From Candidatus Onthousia faecigallinarum (GTDB lineage: Bacteria > Bacillota_I > Bacilli_A > RF39 > UBA660): a stretch of DNA of 44,086 nt. The position numbers were made by a program, and so were the translations under genes. Where the stretch lies: assembly GCA_018716225.1 (NCBI GenBank), contig DVKE01000010.1, positions 1 to 44,086 on the forward strand, given 5' to 3'. The notes beneath the pieces are model-generated. The model did no database searches. It was not told the DNA's origin and saw nothing but the letters and a program-made list of their open reading frames with translations. Shown here piece by piece: positions 8,970 through 33,797 of the stretch (position 1 is the stretch's first letter; each line of letters begins with the position of its first letter).

Positions 8970-9338
8970 CAATAAATATTTGGACAAGTGCTGGAATTTA
9001 TTCTAGAGGAAAGTCCATGCTCACACAATTCTGTGATGATTGTAGTGTTCGTGCTTAGGGAAAAAATAACCTAAGGTAGTTTTTCATGAAAAGCTAACGG
9101 CTAAAAATACATCTAAGGGAGTTTCCTATGATGTATTTTTCTAACGTGCCACAGTGACGATGTTCTTGGAAACAGGAAAGTGAAACGCGGTAAACCCCAC
9201 GAGTGAGAAACCCAAATTATGGTAGGGGAGCTTTCTTTTGGAGAAACAGAATCCAAAGAGGGACTATCGAAAGATGGTAGATAAATACTTGTCACCTACA
9301 TTAGTAGGAACAGAACATGGCTTATAAAATATTTATTG
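8970..9338 (+). ncRNA. rnpB: RNase P RNA, Bacillus (B) type
   Basis: Helix P1 is formed by caataaatattt at the 5' end and its exact complement aaatatttattg at the 3' end. Inside are the conserved region GAGGAAAGTCCATGCTCAC near the start and ACAGAACATGGCTTAT near the end, plus GAAACGCGGTAAACCCCACG in the middle. Length is about 369 bases. It is the catalytic RNA that trims 5' leaders from pre-tRNAs. Position between gpsB and a downstream gene matches Bacillus. Ends are set from P1 pairing and could be off by a few bases. Confidence 0.93.
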
Positions 9339-25993: not shown

Positions 25994-26635
25994 ATGATGA
26001 AGAAAAAGAAAAGAAGATTATTGACCGAAGAAGATTTTGCAATTGTGGAGGATCATGTAAAAAAAGTCAAAAAGATTTCAACCATTGTTGTGATTGTTAT
26101 TATTGCACTTGGTTGCTTGATTGGTCTTGACATTATTTTGGTAACAAAAGCCAATATAGGGCCTTTTTTGGCCGTTCGAACCAAAGTTTATGATGATGGC
26201 GGAACGGAAGAGTTTTATGGGATTGGTTATAAAGTTATTAAATATCATCAAGATGAGGGAAGACAAGATACCGTTTTGGGTAGTTGGGGATTAAAATATT
26301 CCGTAACACCGATTGTTACTACTTGTGAAGATCTTGCCTTTGCTTTACGAAATGATTCTTCCGCTTATCAAAATTATCGAGGACAATATATGCAAATCAG
26401 TGGCGTAATTTCTCAAGTTGATATAGAAAATCATCTTATCGTTTTACAATATCTTGATACCGTGGGAGGAGCTTATTCTCTTGATGTAGACTTCTTTATG
26501 GATGATAGTGTGAATCTTTCTGCTTATAAAAAAGGAGATAGAATAATTTTAGTAGGTACTCTTTATGATTATAAAGGAAAAAATGATGATAACAATCGAA
26601 CGGTTTTCTTAAAAAATGGGTTTGTAGCATCTTAA
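25994..26635 (+). CDS. Membrane-anchored protein with an OB-fold-like domain
   Basis: 213 residues. A basic N-terminus and a coiled segment precede one membrane helix (about 28-50), so the C-terminal part is probably outside. That part includes YRGQYMQISGVISQVDI and GDRIILVGTLYDYKG, strand patterns like the tRNA_anti-like OB fold found in small exported proteins. It has its own promoter and GGGGTGAG ribosome site. A hairpin (GAGGAA/TTCCTC at 26643-26659) follows but lacks a T-run. Function unknown. It is the last core-like gene before the AT-rich island. Confidence 0.65.
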   Translation: MMKKKKRRLLTEEDFAIVEDHVKKVKKISTIVVIVIIALGCLIGLDIILVTKANIGPFLAVRTKVYDDGGTEEFYGIGYKVIKYHQDEGRQDTVLGSWGLKYSVTPIVTTCEDLAFALRNDSSAYQNYRGQYMQISGVISQVDIENHLIVLQYLDTVGGAYSLDVDFFMDDSVNLSAYKKGDRIILVGTLYDYKGKNDDNNRTVFLKNGFVAS

Positions 26636-26711: not shown

Positions 26712-27299
26712 ATGGGAAAAATTTCAAATGCAATACAAATGTTAAATTATTTGAATACAGGAAATAAATATAGTGTTAAAGAACTTTCTGAAAAAATAGG
26801 TATTACAGAACGAATGATTAGATATTATAAAGCTGAATTAGAGCAAGCAGGAATTCCAATAGAAACTTTTATGGGCCCTAATGGTGGTTATTACATATTA
26901 AATCTTCAAAATCAGTATAATCATTTTAATAAATATGATCTTCAATTATTGGATAATATTAATACAATATTAGAAAAAATCGAATATCAAGATATTGAAA
27001 AATATAAAAAAATAATTAGTAAGATTAAATTCGCTAGTGATATCGAAGAAGAAAAAAGCAAATATTTTTTAGAAAATAGAACTGATAATAGTTCTGAATT
27101 ATATCATATTTTAAATGAGGCAATTTTAAATAATACACCTATAAAAATATTATATAGAAATTTAAATCAAGAATGGCAAGAGCGAGTTATTCATCCTTTA
27201 CAAATATTTAATTATGATAATAAATTTTATGTTACAGCATTTTGCGAATTAAGAGATGATATTAGACATTTTGAAATAAGCAGAATAAAGTTAAACTGA
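26712..27299 (+). CDS. Short WYL-domain transcriptional regulator
   Basis: 195 residues. The N-terminal winged helix-turn-helix has KYSVKELSEKIGITERMIRYY, and a GPNGGYYI wing. A helical linker leads into a WYL domain (TPIKILYRN, ERVIHPLQIFNYDNKFYVTAFC, RHFEISRIKLN). The usual C-terminal WCX extension is absent because the frame stops right after the SRI segment, so it is about a third shorter than common YafY-type proteins. WYL proteins sense ligands, often nucleotides, and commonly control defence or DNA-damage genes. AGGGTGAT precedes the ATG. It lies 65 bases upstream of a five-gene operon and most likely controls it. Confidence 0.85.
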   Translation: MGKISNAIQMLNYLNTGNKYSVKELSEKIGITERMIRYYKAELEQAGIPIETFMGPNGGYYILNLQNQYNHFNKYDLQLLDNINTILEKIEYQDIEKYKKIISKIKFASDIEEEKSKYFLENRTDNSSELYHILNEAILNNTPIKILYRNLNQEWQERVIHPLQIFNYDNKFYVTAFCELRDDIRHFEISRIKLN

Positions 27300-27364: not shown

Positions 27365-27844
27365 ATGTCTAATAGAAAAATATTTCTTGATTTTGATGGA
27401 GTGATCTTTGATACAGAAAAAAGAGTTTTGGAGAGAAAAAATCAAAGACCAGATATTAGTTGGAATGAATTTTTTGAAAAGTTAAATTGGTTTGAATTGT
27501 TGGATGAGTCCGAAGTGATAAATAATGCCATCGAATATATATTAGAGGGACAATCAAAAGCAAAGCAAATTGCAATTTTAACTAAGGTTCATACTTTATT
27601 CGAAATGGAAGCTAAAGTAAAAGCATTAAGAAGCAGAAAAGTAGAAATACCGATATTTTTTGTTCCCCCACATGTGAAAAAAAGTCAAATATATTTACCT
27701 AATAATGGTGAAATTTTAATTGATGATAGTATTAAAAATTTAGTAGATTGGGAACAGAATGGTGGGAGAGGCCTTTATTTTAATGAAGCGTTAGATTCTT
27801 CAACACAATTTGAAACAATAAAATCTTTAAATAAAATTTTATAA
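27365..27844 (+). CDS. HAD-superfamily phosphatase, 5'-nucleotidase-like
   Basis: 159 residues. The first motif FLDFDGVIFDT carries both catalytic aspartates, the second motif threonine is in AILTKVH, and the third and fourth motifs read as the KKSQIYL lysine and LIDDSIKNLVDWEQNGG. The IDDSIKNLVDWEQNGG pattern resembles bacterial and phage 5'(3')-deoxyribonucleotidase-like HAD proteins, so a nucleotide or small phosphate ester is the likely substrate. It is the first gene of the operon, ten bases before the HAD-PRTase fusion, with GGTGAT ahead of its ATG. Very AT-rich, with frequent ATA and AGA codons. Confidence 0.8.
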   Translation: MSNRKIFLDFDGVIFDTEKRVLERKNQRPDISWNEFFEKLNWFELLDESEVINNAIEYILEGQSKAKQIAILTKVHTLFEMEAKVKALRSRKVEIPIFFVPPHVKKSQIYLPNNGEILIDDSIKNLVDWEQNGGRGLYFNEALDSSTQFETIKSLNKIL

Positions 27845-27854
27845 GGTGATATTT

Positions 27855-30191
27855 ATGATTACTGAAGAATTAAAGAAAAACTATGAAAAGGCTTTGGAAC
27901 AAAAGTATAATGCGGTATGTTTTGATATAGATGGTACATTAACAGAAGTTAATTCTACTAAAATAGATCGCCGAATTTTGCCAGTATTAGCTGATATATT
28001 GAAAAGGCATATACCTATAGTTTTCATTACGGGTAGAGGAGAAACTGGCTTAAATGATTTATTAGATGATATTGTTTATGACTTAAAAAATAAATATGGA
28101 GTTACTAAAAAACAATTGTTAAAAATGTATGCACTTACAAATGATGGGGCTAGAATATTTATGACTAGTAGTAATAGTGATCAACTTTTTAATGTTTCTG
28201 AATATATATCTTCCGAAGAAGATTTAATTAAATTAGAAGAATTAAATGATAAGCTTATAAAGCTATTAAAATCTTCTCCGTTAGGAGAATTCTGTAGAGT
28301 CACTTATTCGAAAGATTCTAAAACTAATGTGATATTTAATGTAAGATTATCTACCCTTATTGATAATGAAGAAATTAATAGTAAATTTGTTAATATGATT
28401 AATTCATTGATAGAAAATTCAGAGGATTCAAGTTTAAACTTGACAATAGGTATACATGGTGGTAATCAGGTTTTTCAAATTGGAACTGCAACAAAAGATA
28501 AAGCAATATTAATCGCCGAGCGCATAATGGGTATACCTCAAAATTCAATGTTAAGAATTGGTGATTGTGGAAATAAATATGGAAATGATTATTCTATGTT
28601 AAATTGTCCTCAAGGTTTTAGTGTTGAAAAAACCAGTGGGGATAATGATAAATGTTTTCCTATTATTGAAGAGGGGAAGATTATAACAGGCATAAATGGG
28701 ACTTTAGCTTTGTTAAAACAAGTTAAATTGTTACCTACTATTTGTTTAGAACATGCAATACAAAGTGATTATGCAAAATCATATGCTCAAATAGAAAAGA
28801 AAATGAATCAAGGAAAAAATGATAAGATTTCCTATTTTAATTGTTTAGTTAATAATAAATTTCAGTTAGCAGATGGCATTGGTGGATTGTATGATTCATC
28901 TAGTGGAAGTATAAAGATTCCCATGTATGAATGGATACTTATACCAGACAATAATCCATTAAAACAATTGTGGTTATCAAATAATAACTCTAGTTTGTGT
29001 TATGCAATGTATGATAATCAAAATGTTTTATTGAGAGGTTCGCGGGTATATTATTATTTTTTATCTCAACGAATTCATGATGAAAATACAAGAGAAGACA
29101 TAACTACTAACGAAATGATTTATGATTGGTTAAATAATAATGTTAAATTCTTATCGAAATCTTTAATAGCAATTGATAATATTTTGAATTTAAATGATTT
29201 AAACAATACTAAAATGATTTTAGGATTAACTGATAATGTTAGAAATCTTTTGTTGATTTTATTAAATCAAAAGATAGTTAGTAATGGTGTTGAAAAAAAT
29301 ATTATGTTGAACTTGGAAAAATTACCCAAAGATTCTTTGATTTATAAAATTTATAGTAATTTATTAAAAACAGAAAATTTAATGGAAAAAATCTCATTTC
29401 AGCAAAATTATAAAATTAATTATACTGATATAGATAATTTGATTAAAAATACAATTTCAGTTGTTAATAAATTTAAATTAGAATTTTGTGGTTTTAAGTC
29501 AAAAGAAAATTATTCCAAAGATTTTAGGGCATATAGAGAAATAGATAATTTTGCTGAAAATTTTATTACATGTTATTTAACTGTACAAAAAGATCCGAGC
29601 GTTTTTAATAAGGGAATGTGTGGTTTATGTTATGGCGGCTTGGAATTGCCTATTATAATGAAATCTATAGAAGAGCAAATAGCTGATGTTTCACTCTTAA
29701 AATTCAATAATAGTGTAACGGGTTATTCTAAAAAGCAATCATTAGAATTAAGATTTTTTGATATATTTAAACTTGGCGGAATTGATCTTTTTGAAATCGA
29801 TAAACAAAAAAAATATGTTTTGTTGGATGATAATTTATTAACAGGGAAAACAATGCAATTAGCTATGACAACTCTTTATGATATAGGAATAGATGTTGAA
29901 AAAATAGTGGCGGTTAGGTATCCCAGCGTAAATAGAATTAGTCAAATGTTTATGCCTAAGCATGGTGCTGTTGATTATAGATATTTTTTTGATTTTATAG
30001 AAGGTTTGTATTTTCCTAGCCCTTATAGTTGGAGGGATTCTTTTAGTACCAATCCATATGAGGATTCTTTGGGAGTTTTTGATTTGAATAGAAGAAAAAT
30101 ATTAGAAAGTTTGGCTAAAAATGGTGATTATTCTAAAAAAAGTGAAGTATTACATGTAAAAAGGAAGGTAAAACATGAGAGCAAAAGTTGA
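27855..30191 (+). CDS. HAD phosphatase-phosphoribosyltransferase fusion
   Basis: About 778 residues. Residues 1-290 are a Cof/sucrose-phosphatase-type HAD domain: CFDIDGTLTEV (D24 and D26), FITGRGE, a TKDKAILIAE lysine and LRIGDCGNKYGND. Residues about 290-590 are helical and unrecognised. The C-terminal part is a type I phosphoribosyltransferase: MCGLCYGGLELP resembles the N-terminal substrate loop and VLLDDNLLTGKT (residues 655-666) is the PRPP-binding motif. It could make or break an N-glycosidic bond with PRPP and then dephosphorylate the product. The GTG at 27846 is part of the AAGGTGAT site, so ATG 27855 is used. It overlaps the next gene by 17 bases. Confidence 0.85.
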   Translation: MITEELKKNYEKALEQKYNAVCFDIDGTLTEVNSTKIDRRILPVLADILKRHIPIVFITGRGETGLNDLLDDIVYDLKNKYGVTKKQLLKMYALTNDGARIFMTSSNSDQLFNVSEYISSEEDLIKLEELNDKLIKLLKSSPLGEFCRVTYSKDSKTNVIFNVRLSTLIDNEEINSKFVNMINSLIENSEDSSLNLTIGIHGGNQVFQIGTATKDKAILIAERIMGIPQNSMLRIGDCGNKYGNDYSMLNCPQGFSVEKTSGDNDKCFPIIEEGKIITGINGTLALLKQVKLLPTICLEHAIQSDYAKSYAQIEKKMNQGKNDKISYFNCLVNNKFQLADGIGGLYDSSSGSIKIPMYEWILIPDNNPLKQLWLSNNNSSLCYAMYDNQNVLLRGSRVYYYFLSQRIHDENTREDITTNEMIYDWLNNNVKFLSKSLIAIDNILNLNDLNNTKMILGLTDNVRNLLLILLNQKIVSNGVEKNIMLNLEKLPKDSLIYKIYSNLLKTENLMEKISFQQNYKINYTDIDNLIKNTISVVNKFKLEFCGFKSKENYSKDFRAYREIDNFAENFITCYLTVQKDPSVFNKGMCGLCYGGLELPIIMKSIEEQIADVSLLKFNNSVTGYSKKQSLELRFFDIFKLGGIDLFEIDKQKKYVLLDDNLLTGKTMQLAMTTLYDIGIDVEKIVAVRYPSVNRISQMFMPKHGAVDYRYFFDFIEGLYFPSPYSWRDSFSTNPYEDSLGVFDLNRRKILESLAKNGDYSKKSEVLHVKRKVKHESKS

Positions 30192-30852
30192 TGTTGATAA
30201 ATGGAAGCGAAAATTAGCATATGAGACTTTTTCTGATTATGATGATCCATATACTGGTATAGTGACTAAAATTAATGTAACTAATTTAGTTAATTATTGC
30301 AAACAAAATAATATTTCATTTTATGGTTGTATGACATACTTTGTATTAAATTCTATGAGTGCAATTGAAGCTTTTTATTATGGATATGGTAAAGAAGAAA
30401 ATGAAATTTCTGTTTATAAGTATGATGTTTTAGCGGCTACTGCAACAGTTATTAATAAAGAAAATGAGTTGAATTTTACAAGATATATTGAATATAACGA
30501 TGATATTTCAGATTTTATTTTAGATTTTTCCAATGCAACAAAGGATGCGTCTAGGAATTGCCCATATTATAAAATTCCGAATTTGGAAAATATGAATAAA
30601 ATTAATATAACATGTATTCCTTGGGTTTCTTTCTCAAACTTTAAAGACGCTGTTACTTTTCGTGAAAAAAACAGCAAGCCTAAAGTATGTTGGGGAAAAT
30701 ATTATTTACAAGACGATAAGTGCTTTTTAGATATTTCTTTATTGGTCAATCATGCTTTTCAAGATGGATATCATATGGGGGTATTTTTTAATAGTTTGCA
30801 ACAGAATATATATAATTTAGAAATAGAAAAACATTTAGTAAAGGTGAGGTAG
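30175..30852 (+). CDS. Chloramphenicol-acetyltransferase-fold acyltransferase
   Basis: 225 residues, CAT-sized. The catalytic motif HxxxDG is present as VNHAFQDGYHMGVFFNSLQ with H193, matching the HHAVxDGYH site of CAT, and the N-terminal WKRKLAYETFSDYDDP segment resembles the CAT opening. It should move an acyl group from CoA to a hydroxyl. Operon context with sugar- and nucleotide-handling enzymes suggests the natural acceptor is a pathway intermediate, not chloramphenicol, but a drug-resistance activity is not excluded. AAGGAAGG lies ahead of the ATG inside the upstream gene, consistent with coupled translation. Confidence 0.82.
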   Translation: MRAKVDVDKWKRKLAYETFSDYDDPYTGIVTKINVTNLVNYCKQNNISFYGCMTYFVLNSMSAIEAFYYGYGKEENEISVYKYDVLAATATVINKENELNFTRYIEYNDDISDFILDFSNATKDASRNCPYYKIPNLENMNKINITCIPWVSFSNFKDAVTFREKNSKPKVCWGKYYLQDDKCFLDISLLVNHAFQDGYHMGVFFNSLQQNIYNLEIEKHLVKVR

Positions 30853-30856
30853 GTTT

Positions 30857-31495
30857 ATGTTAAAGAAATATTGTAAACTTCAAAGTGATTGTGGCAATAT
30901 CAATTATATTGTGTATTTTCCGGAAGACAGGAAGAAAAATATGCCATTGTTGTTATTTTTGCACGGAATTGGGGAAAGAGGAGATAACATTCAAAATGTT
31001 GAAAAATATGCATTACCCAAATATATGAATCGATTTGATATTCCCTATATTGTTGTAGCTCCTCAATGTACAGCGAATAATTTTTGGGATTATCATTTAC
31101 GAGATGTGGAAAAAGTGTTAGAAGAAGTTTATCAAAAATATCACTATGATAAAGATAGAGTCTGTATTTTGGGAAGTAGTATGGGAGCTTTTGGAGCTTT
31201 TAATTATATCATGTCAAGACCCAACCTATTTAAAGGAATCGTATCCGTATCTGGTGGTATTATGTTGCCGATTCCAGGAACTCTATCTCCTTTAAAGGAA
31301 AAAGCAATTTTAATCTATCATGGGAGTGAGGATGATGTTATTGATGTTCAGAAAAGTGTTGAAGCTTATCATAAACTAGAAGAGATTGGGGCCAAAAAGG
31401 TTGAATTAAAAATTATAGAAAAGGATAATCATTTCTTAACTTCTCATGCTTTTAAAGATAAGTATTTGTATGAGTGGTTGGAAAAAAATATTTAA
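30857..31495 (+). CDS. Alpha/beta hydrolase (esterase-like)
   Basis: 212 residues. LLLFLHGIGERG gives the oxyanion-hole strand, the nucleophile elbow is ILGSSMGAFGAF (S108), an acidic residue follows in YHGSEDDVID, and the histidine is in KDNHFL. No signal peptide, so it is cytoplasmic. The layout resembles small carboxylesterase or feruloyl-esterase-like proteins. Four bases separate it from the acyltransferase gene, so the pair may add and remove an acyl group on the same compound, or the hydrolase may release a finished product. Base composition appears slightly less AT-rich than in the preceding genes of the operon. Confidence 0.82.
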   Translation: MLKKYCKLQSDCGNINYIVYFPEDRKKNMPLLLFLHGIGERGDNIQNVEKYALPKYMNRFDIPYIVVAPQCTANNFWDYHLRDVEKVLEEVYQKYHYDKDRVCILGSSMGAFGAFNYIMSRPNLFKGIVSVSGGIMLPIPGTLSPLKEKAILIYHGSEDDVIDVQKSVEAYHKLEEIGAKKVELKIIEKDNHFLTSHAFKDKYLYEWLEKNI

Positions 31496-31507: not shown

Positions 31508-33472
31508 ATGAAAGTAATTAGTATTGGAGATTTGGTTACTGATTTTTATTATAAAAATGGCAAGTTAGTAGGAGTTAATGGGGGAATGACTTCTCATAAC
31601 ATTATTGCTAATATTGCAAAATTCGGGTTGGAAACAGCAGTTTATGGAGTATGTGGTGCTGATAAAGCTGGAAATATTGCGATAAAAAGTTTAAAGGATC
31701 TTGGCGTAAATGGAGAGAATATAAAAATATTAGATTCCTTAAGAACACGTTGTTTTCATGTCTCTTATTTTGATAAAAATAACAAATTAGAATTTACTTC
31801 TAAAAAGCGTTGTCCTTTTTGTAATACTAAGAAGTGGTATGAAGAAAGTCAAATTGATCCCTGTGATATTTTGCAAAAGATTAGTGAAGAGGATGTTTTA
31901 GTCTTTGATAATTTGAATGCGAAAAATCAAATTATTATTGATGGTTGTGAGAATCGAAAAATGTTAGATCTAGGACAATATTTTGAACTTGATCATTATG
32001 AAAACGAGGAAATTGTTAAAAAAATACAATATAAATTCGACCTCATTAATTTAAACGAACGAGTTGAAAAATATTTAAAAGATCGATTTTTGGTAGAATC
32101 ATTAGAAGAGTTATATCAAATTTTGAAGCCTAAAATGATGATTGTGACGAGAGGGAAGAATGGTTCTGACTTTATATTTGATCACAATATAGTCCATAAA
32201 GAATTAACGAATCCTTCCCAAGAAGTAGATCCTACTGGGGCAGGGGATGCTTTTTTTGCAATGTTTATTTGTGAATATATTAAAAATAATTATATTATTG
32301 ATCCTAATTTTATTGATTTAACTTTTGAGAAAGCTACCAAACTTACGAAGAAAGTAGTGAAAAAGTTTGGGGCAAGAGGACATATCCAAAGTTTGTATAA
32401 AATTAAAAAGCTAGCGGGGGTTTGTACTTGTGATGATTTTGAAATTTCCGTAAGAAAACCAATGAAAAGATGTAATATCAATATTAATAATTTGGAAATA
32501 AGAGTGATTCATGCTGTTCATAGTAATGCTTATGAAAAATTATCTAAAATAAATTTTCAAGAAGTTTCAGATAGTATTTTTGTAGGTACGGGTGGTTCTT
32601 TTGCAGGAGCAAAATTTGGAGCGAGGGTTATTAACAATTTATATGGATCAAATACTCTTGCTTTTTATCCTAGAGATGTCTATTATCGAAATAATAGTAA
32701 GGTAGATCTTATATTTTTATTTACTTATTCCGGAACCACCAATGATTTATTTGCAGCGACTCATTCTATCGATAATAGGAATAAGTACATTATAACCAAA
32801 GGGGAAGTACAAAAAGTCGTAATGAAAACGGGAATTGCTAAAAACAATGTCATCTCTTATCGAACGAGTGCGAACAAAGGCAAAGAACGGGGCTTTTTAT
32901 CCTTTGAAGGTGCTCTTGCTCCTGCTAGTTTGTTTTTAAGACTATATTTTGAAAAGCAGGGAAAGAATGATGTAGATAATTTTATTCAAGATAGTATTAA
33001 TTATTGGAAAAATTATTTTCATCAGTATTTTAAAAATAACAAAAAGCAGTTAAAAGAATTTTTAAAACCAGGCAATTCCTTTAATATTTTTACGGGTGAT
33101 TTTACGGAAACGGCTAGTTGTGATTTAGAAAGTAAAATAATTGAATCTGGAATCTATCAATGTTTAATTCATGAAAAAAAGAATTTTTCTCATGGAAGAT
33201 TTATTCATTATGAACATTTAAGTCAGAAAAATAATATCTATTTTAAACAGAAGACTACTAGTCCTTATGAAGAAGTATTACTGGAATATTTAAAAGAAGG
33301 AAATACTTTTATGATTGAAAGTAGATATGATGGGATCTTGTGTGAGTATGATTTGTTGATCGCCACTCAATATTTTATCTATTTTGTAGCTAACTTTCTT
33401 GATATTGATATTTCAAAGCCAACTTATAGTGAAGATGCTATGAAAATCTATTTCTATAAAGGGAAATTATAA
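31508..33472 (+). CDS. PfkB-family carbohydrate/nucleoside kinase fused to a SIS domain
   Basis: 654 residues. Residues 1-300 are a ribokinase-fold kinase: GVNGGMTSHNIIANIAKFG near the N-terminus and DPTGAGDAFFAMF with catalytic D247. A Cys-rich insertion (KKRCPFCNTKKW, plus C119) and a CTC pair near 306-308 could bind a metal. Residues about 340-650 form a SIS domain with FVGTGGSFAGAKFG and FTYSGTTNDLF, the sugar-phosphate-binding loops of isomerases and GlmS-like enzymes. One chain could phosphorylate a sugar and then isomerise or bind it. It ends the operon, 12 bases after the hydrolase, with GTAGGTGG before ATG. I know of no standard pathway enzyme with this fusion. Confidence 0.85.
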   Translation: MKVISIGDLVTDFYYKNGKLVGVNGGMTSHNIIANIAKFGLETAVYGVCGADKAGNIAIKSLKDLGVNGENIKILDSLRTRCFHVSYFDKNNKLEFTSKKRCPFCNTKKWYEESQIDPCDILQKISEEDVLVFDNLNAKNQIIIDGCENRKMLDLGQYFELDHYENEEIVKKIQYKFDLINLNERVEKYLKDRFLVESLEELYQILKPKMMIVTRGKNGSDFIFDHNIVHKELTNPSQEVDPTGAGDAFFAMFICEYIKNNYIIDPNFIDLTFEKATKLTKKVVKKFGARGHIQSLYKIKKLAGVCTCDDFEISVRKPMKRCNININNLEIRVIHAVHSNAYEKLSKINFQEVSDSIFVGTGGSFAGAKFGARVINNLYGSNTLAFYPRDVYYRNNSKVDLIFLFTYSGTTNDLFAATHSIDNRNKYIITKGEVQKVVMKTGIAKNNVISYRTSANKGKERGFLSFEGALAPASLFLRLYFEKQGKNDVDNFIQDSINYWKNYFHQYFKNNKKQLKEFLKPGNSFNIFTGDFTETASCDLESKIIESGIYQCLIHEKKNFSHGRFIHYEHLSQKNNIYFKQKTTSPYEEVLLEYLKEGNTFMIESRYDGILCEYDLLIATQYFIYFVANFLDIDISKPTYSEDAMKIYFYKGKL

Positions 33473-33535
33473 GAGGTAATATATAGTTTTATAAGATTTT
33501 ACAAGAGAAAAAATTTATAGATAGCATTAAATTTC

Positions 33536-33564
33536 TTGTCATTCCTTGGGATCTATGATATATT
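33536..33564 (+). promoter_or_regulatory. Promoter of the ileS T-box leader
   Basis: TTGTCA, 17-base spacer, TATATT with an ATGA extended -10. The interval 33473-33535 before it holds no gene that I can see. Confidence 0.65.
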
Positions 33565-33570
33565 AACTCA

Positions 33571-33774
33571 TGAAAACAAGTGCGAAAGACGGAAGTAAGA
33601 GGTATTTTAAAGAGACTTCATGGTTGGTGGAAATGAAGAAAGAGCCTTACTTTAGATCACTTTCAAGTGTGCTTTGGGGATAAGCCAAGGTCGGGTTAAC
33701 CGTTATCAATTACGAGATAGAGGAATCTATGAATTAAGGTGGTACCGCGTTTTTTACGCCCTTAAGGCATAGAT
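33571..33774 (+). promoter_or_regulatory. T-box riboswitch controlling ileS
   Basis: The T-box core AAGGTGGTACCGCG is at 33736-33749. The leader before it is consistent with stem I, and TTTAGATCAC places an ATC isoleucine codon at 33656-33658 as the likely specifier. A terminator follows in which AATCTATG pairs with CATAGATT and TTAAGG with CCTTAA, ending in a T-run; the antiterminator would use the T-box. Uncharged isoleucine tRNA should bind the leader and allow ileS transcription. Confidence 0.92.
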
Positions 33775-33797
33775 TTTTTATTTTTAGGAGGGATTTT

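Follow-up and report, generated by a model that had tools for sequence, protein, structure and literature searches.

In the accessible part of the paper on Ter systems (PMC7824862), PRTases and a HAD phosphoesterase are proposed to make a nucleoside-like signal, and no such metabolite is named. We have found a HAD phosphatase domain and a type I PRTase-like domain joined in one chain, encoded in a 44,086-nt stretch of DNA from Candidatus Onthousia faecigallinarum (contig DVKE01000010.1; this whole stretch is called the window below). The fusion gene is part of a four-gene mobile cassette composed of a WYL regulator, a small NT5C-like HAD, the HAD-PRTase and a PfkB-SIS fusion. While the Ter biosynthetic module comes with Ter partner genes, the cassette is without Ter genes, and a Pfam search of 32 members at E ≤ 0.1 matched none of the Ter module families PRTase_1, PRTase_2, PRTase_3 and TRSP. 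The cassette is apparently undescribed, its domains being known; we found no account of it in the literature, the coverage of which was incomplete and had most subscription papers outside it.

The HAD-PRTase gene occupies positions 27855..30191 of the forward strand. The open reading frame (27846-30191, +) encodes 781 aa when a GTG codon is taken as its start and 778 aa when the ATG at 27855 is. Alignments of homologues begin at this ATG, the probable start, with the GTG at 27846 as a possible earlier one; residues are numbered here from the ATG. The AF2 model, computed from an alignment of 32 homologues, has a mean pLDDT of 86.6 and a pTM of 0.87. The first-pass annotation had read this frame as a HAD phosphatase and a type I PRTase in one chain, and we arrived at the same architecture: the frame is real, the HAD is complete and the PRPP motif is intact.

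Residues 1-290 (27855..28724, +) form a HAD-IIB phosphatase domain with a C2-type cap, as indicated by TIGR01484, Foldseek and the motifs. The match to TIGR01484 (E 8e-8) lies under the curated cut-off of that HAD-IIB model. Motifs I-IV (DxDGT, T, K and GDxxxD, with DIDGT at residues 24-28) and the C2-type cap are all present, which makes the domain a member of the HAD group. In a Foldseek search of the model against the PDB the listed matches are C2-capped HADs (E 1e-9 to 1e-6), and among them the top fold match of the HAD part is the IMP-specific 5'-nucleotidase ISN1 (E 9e-10). The likeness to ISN1 is in fold only, at about 14% identity, and the Pfam ISN1 family has no match at E ≤ 0.1 in the 32 members. 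The middle segment (residues 291-585; 28725..29609, +) produced no family, profile or plasmid match in sequence and profile searches. The absence of any recognised motif in these ∼300 residues, noted in the first pass, is thereby borne out, yet the segment is conserved, predicted to be ordered and mostly helical in the AF2 model.

The C-terminal domain (residues 586-778; 29610..30188, +) carries GLCYGG, which resembles a PPi loop, and VLLDDNLLTGKT (residues 655-666), which fits the type I PRTase PRPP-binding motif hhhDDxxxTGxT. With type I PRTases such as HPRT and PyrR this domain of the window shares the PRPP loop, the PPi-loop-like GG and, in the model, the beta-alpha order; the predicted strand and helix order of the C-terminal ∼190 residues agrees with a type I PRTase. 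It differs from HPRT and PyrR by a score below the Pfam gathering level, by the extra helical middle and by the HAD fusion. Pfam Pribosyltran (PF00156) matches the window protein at E 0.048, with 13.4 bits against a gathering cut-off of 26.3, and matches 12 of the 32 homologues, at best with E 1.7e-4. Several PRTases are listed in the comparison of the model with viral structures, all weakly (E 0.025-0.32), and in profile comparison with HPRT proteins the PRPP loop alone aligns (E 0.0011; controls 0.05-0.4). Mainly from this one motif and the predicted topology, the domain is probably a phosphoribosyltransferase.

Conservation of the residues expected to act in catalysis is nearly complete. 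In the HAD domain D24, T59, K214, D237 and D245 are found in all 32 homologues and D26 in 31; in the PRTase domain D658, D659, K665 and T666 are kept in all 32, T663 and G664 in 31. The earlier statement that both active sites are intact therefore extends to the family, and the loss of active-site residues that had been named as evidence against it was absent from the 32 homologues. Between close pairs dN/dS ranges over 0.13-0.27 (HAD segment), 0.07-0.18 (middle) and 0.07-0.15 (PRTase segment; a lone outlier of 0.36 rests on a dS of 0.02), and the PRTase segment has the lowest value in most pairs. These low ratios point to purifying selection on all three segments, the middle included. Conservation also bears on the idea that the PRTase domain is a non-catalytic nucleotide or PRPP sensor controlling the HAD, as in regulatory PRTase-fold proteins. 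A weak match to catalytic PRTases and the lack of PRPP synthetase (Prs) in many hosts would fit a sensor, but with four of the motif residues invariant, two kept in 31 homologues and the lowest dN/dS in this very segment we consider a sensor very unlikely.

The gene content of the cassette was compared over 45 loci obtained by an alignment-based scan with one genome per species. The first gene (26712..27299, +; 42 of 45 loci) encodes a WYL-domain HTH regulator (Pfam WYL 1e-15, HTH_11 2.3e-6). The second (27365..27844, +; 44 of 45 loci) encodes a small HAD resembling NT5C, a 5'-deoxyribonucleotidase, with a Pfam NT5C E-value of 0.002 that is below the cut-off; its motifs DFDGV, ILTK and IDDS are kept in most homologues. 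The HAD-PRTase follows, as a single full-length frame in 38 of the 45 loci; it is interrupted in five (L022, L037, L042, L059 and L060), and in two it runs off the end of the DNA. In genome G061 the HAD-PRTase is present only as a 39-residue remnant (L019:9444-9560) adjoining an intact PfkB-SIS gene. The last gene (31508..33472, +; 42 of 45 loci) encodes the fusion of a PfkB kinase with a double-SIS domain (Pfam PfkB 1.8e-13; AF2 pLDDT 84.9); in the three loci where it is missing, the DNA ends just past or within the HAD-PRTase gene.

Between the two large fusion genes there is an optional slot. In the window it holds a CAT-like acetyltransferase gene (30175..30852, +; Pfam CAT 4.5e-30; three of the 45 other loci), whose start overlaps the end of the HAD-PRTase gene, and a gene for an esterase-like alpha/beta hydrolase (30857..31495, +; Peptidase_S9 9e-15, Abhydrolase_2 1.2e-14; six of 45 loci). 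Both are found in the window, L026, L030 and L060, the hydrolase alone in L025, L029 and L032, and a DHH/DHHA1 phosphoesterase with an APH-like kinase in L037, L044 and L046. Pairs of an optional transferase and a hydrolase at one cassette position look as if a blocking group were put on and taken off. No transporter, ligase or base-supplying gene was found in the cassette.

The PfkB-SIS fusion invites comparison with fructosamine kinase/deglycase pairs of the FrlD/FrlB type, with which the cassette shares a PfkB kinase, a double-SIS protein and a Glu/His pair. Residues E237 and H253 of the double-SIS domain (alignment A10) are invariant, and an identical Glu and His occupy the aligned positions in 2aml and 8eol; we take them to be the catalytic Glu/His pair of the isomerase/deglycase group (GlmS, AgaS and FrlB type). 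The cassette is unlike FrlD/FrlB in having one fused chain, in the linked HAD-PRTase, in a PfkB domain far below the equivalog cut-off and in the sequence HGR in place of HGP: the HGP of known SIS enzymes is changed to HGR in all 21 A10 members and in L138 and L139. The PfkB domain folds closest to nucleoside and sugar kinases; it matches the fructoselysine 6-kinase model NF007321 at 2e-10, and several sugar kinases match equally well or better.

An HGR-type SIS gene also occurs outside the cassette. In two genera of Bacilli we observed an operon of WYL, HGR-type SIS and Ham1 NTP pyrophosphatase genes (L138:8210-10449 and L139:2395-4593) adjoining a BtpA or dCMP deaminase gene. The WYL proteins of L138 and of the window share 41% identity, and the L138 SIS protein is homologous to the window SIS. 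A further cluster near cassettes, at first read as Ham1, proved to be joined by a NUDIX domain instead. The linked genes are genes of nucleotide and ribosyl enzymes: NADAR, Ham1, DHH/DHHA1 and a nucleoside deoxyribosyltransferase (L093).

With this material one may ask if the cassette clears glycation damage, PfkB and SIS acting as a fructosamine-6-kinase and a deglycase on a glycated or ribosylated amine while the HAD-PRTase removes or recycles ribose phosphate. The NF007321 match, though far below cut-off, the double-SIS Glu/His pair and the Ham1 and NADAR partners agree with such a role; the uniform HGR, the absence of an amine transporter and the equal or better matches of PfkB to other sugar kinases do not, and deglycation appears quite improbable to us.

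The 45 carriers are labelled as uncultured Bacilli, Tenericutes, Mollicutes, Erysipelotrichaceae or similar, or just as bacterium; six of the loci are on the same contigs as L012-L017, the loci from relatives of the window's genome. Among 148 relatives the full HAD-PRTase gene is present in seven (the window's genome counted) and a fragment in two more. The cassette moves horizontally, as seen in three observations. The flanking genes vary between the 45 loci; GC over the cassette in the window is 24-30% versus 33-36% outside; and in the relative G026 the gene corresponding to the left neighbour of the cassette (25994-26635 in the window) precedes the ileS leader by ∼0.3 kb, an interval that holds a small ORF and no cassette. 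On the right side of the cassette in the window, upstream of ileS, we observed a T-box-like leader (GGTGGTACCGCG; 33528-33790) unreported by Rfam at the gathering threshold. Elsewhere, at 8976-9329, the window carries a bacterial RNase P class B RNA (Rfam E 8e-86).

A query with the single protein against genome and viral collections yielded no match, and no relatives of the cassette were found in viral contigs and phages. Weak HAD matches in other Bacilli were put down to ordinary HADs. The 141 ORFs that flank the cassettes, scanned without a background set, include three serine recombinases and a few scattered matches to defence models, and are mostly housekeeping-like genes.

Among plasmids the window protein has a single match (E 6e-3), which lies in the HAD domain, on p3_Teo12 of Shinella. 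The locus there contains genes for a SIS-HAD fusion, PRTase-CE, an ORC/CDC6-like ATPase, a CARF6 protein and PfkB, with TniB/TniQ transposition genes nearby. The same gene set occurs on further plasmids of Alpha- and Betaproteobacteria and of one actinobacterium, with NADAR in several; Sinorhizobium meliloti pRRI128_5 is another example, in which SIS-HAD and PfkB (plus NADAR) stand by PRTase-CE, the ORC/CDC6-like ATPase and CARF6. SIS-HAD is found in 18 plasmid records and PRTase-CE in 18, with 17 of 19 records common to both. In the plasmid loci L011 and L086-L096 the genes fall into two modules of variable order. No literature description of a locus combining SIS-HAD, PfkB, PRTase-CE, the ORC/CDC6-like ATPase and CARF6 was found, in the same incomplete coverage.

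Profile comparisons tie the enzymes of the two systems together: the HAD of the HAD-PRTase matches the HAD of the plasmid SIS-HAD at E 1.4e-15, and the Bacilli SIS matches the plasmid SIS at E 8e-13 over 287 columns. When the homologue from L046 was used as a query, the only plasmid matches were two of these SIS-HAD proteins. A Cys-Pro pair is invariant in the PfkB alignment of cassette and plasmid proteins. A homology between the window PRTase and PRTase-CE was rejected (hhalign E about 0.3 over 20 columns). Common to the plasmid systems and the cassette are, then, a homologous HAD, double-SIS and PfkB, a PRTase-fold protein, a ligand sensor and mobile DNA. The fusions differ, SIS-HAD on the plasmids and HAD-PRTase and PfkB-SIS in the cassette, as do the PRTase family and the sensor (CARF and an ATPase instead of WYL), and the small HAD is absent from the plasmids. 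No recurrent gene for CARF6 or for an ORC/CDC6-like ATPase was found in the cassette across the 45 loci; WYL is there instead. WYL and CARF domains have been proposed as analogous ligand-binding regulators (PMC4012209). The cassette and the plasmid loci may be two branches of one undescribed class whose members would produce or break down a ribosyl-sugar signal detected through WYL or CARF, a reading that we think rather unlikely; the likeness of their HAD, SIS and PfkB domains could also come from separate recruitment of common folds.

The plasmid relatives also lend some weight to a role in defence, in which an anti-phage or anti-plasmid system, switched by WYL or, in the plasmid form, by CARF, would act by depleting or altering nucleotides or by producing a toxic nucleoside. 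These relatives, carried by unrelated bacteria, adjoin genes that look like sensors of virus defence; they are linked to CARF6, to PRTase-CE (retron III-A-like in PADLOC) and to an ORC-like ATPase, and the cassette itself is sporadic, mobile and under a WYL regulator. But its enzymes match no PADLOC defence model, only the WYL/HTH regulator matching regulator models; defence-like genes are few in the mostly housekeeping-like flanks, and phages and viral contigs gave no relatives. Altogether, defence seems distinctly unlikely.

A PRTase calls attention to the supply of PRPP. No PRPP synthetase was detected in the window's genome (92% complete): neither TIGR01251 nor the Prs of the clade itself found one there, and none of its proteins passes the PF00156 threshold. 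Among the 45 carriers 18 have a Prs match over the cut-off and 27 have none; as many of these genomes are drafts, part of the absences may come from missing sequence. The NAD-salvage cluster of the relative G028 has Prs placed between NadE and NadD, a position at which the window's genome (G000) is without it. Nicotinate PRTase is kept in G000, and PRPP may thus still exist there, coming from another source. Prs is missing in many relatives of the window's genome as well, although nicotinate PRTase is kept. The cassette as a substitute for a lost Prs was rejected, since some carriers have Prs and others do not, and the cassette is absent from several relatives that lack Prs.

The first-pass annotation had proposed that the 5'-phosphorylated ribosyl product of the PRTase is dephosphorylated at once by the fused HAD, which would free a ribosyl compound and pull the reversible PRTase reaction forward; spelled out, the PRTase would make a ribosyl-5'-phosphate from PRPP and the two domains would form one committed step towards a free nucleoside. 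Two intact sites in one chain (38 of 45 loci) and a HAD fold closest to ISN1 are what one would expect of such an enzyme. Against it, the HAD of the plasmid relatives is fused to SIS instead, many hosts are without Prs and the ISN1 likeness is confined to the fold. Since the PRTase adjacent to the plasmid SIS-HAD is of a different family (PRTase-CE), the HAD substrate need not be a PRTase product. The presence of two complete sites in one chain stands; as to the pulling, for which the plasmid HAD and the undetected host Prs are unfavourable, the sequences leave a direct effect of HAD on PRTase possible, and the committed-step scheme as a whole is in our view unlikely.

The shared HAD/SIS/PfkB set, the nucleotide and ribosyl partner genes and the WYL or CARF proteins suggest a ribosyl or nucleotide-metabolite pathway under a ligand-sensing regulator. 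The reading we favour, plausible but held tentatively, is that the HAD-PRTase would be the central enzyme of a mobile cassette under WYL control, serving to make or recycle a small ribosyl (nucleoside-like) molecule. In the PRTase domain PRPP and an amine or a base would exchange a phosphoribosyl group; the HAD of the fusion and the small NT5C-like HAD would take the phosphate off the resulting ribosyl-phosphate; the PfkB domain would put phosphate back on a sugar or a nucleoside; and isomerisation or deglycation of the phosphosugar would fall to the double-SIS domain. WYL might sense a pathway ligand in the cassette, a part that CARF would play in the plasmid relatives. The domains, their intact catalytic motifs, the linkage of the genes, their mobility and the HAD/SIS/PfkB set of both systems are observed; which substrates and which ligand are involved, in what direction and order the steps run and what the cassette does for its host is what we infer. 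Against this ribosyl pathway stand the lack of a Prs match in the window's genome and in 27 of 45 carriers, a PRTase domain that matches known PRTases weakly outside the PRPP loop and shows no relation to PRTase-CE, the absence of a transporter, ligase or base-supplying gene from the cassette, and the chance that the plasmid link reflects common folds recruited separately.

The Prs-less carriers pose the question of which substrate a PRTase would use in a cell seemingly unable to make PRPP. Being compact, with two large fused enzymes, and present in many species, the cassette would be a tractable place to find a nucleoside-like compound, and its connection with plasmid loci that carry CARF hints at a type of ligand different from cyclic oligonucleotides. 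If cassette and plasmid loci are indeed two branches of one class, this would tie sugar-phosphate isomerase chemistry to prokaryotic conflict signalling.
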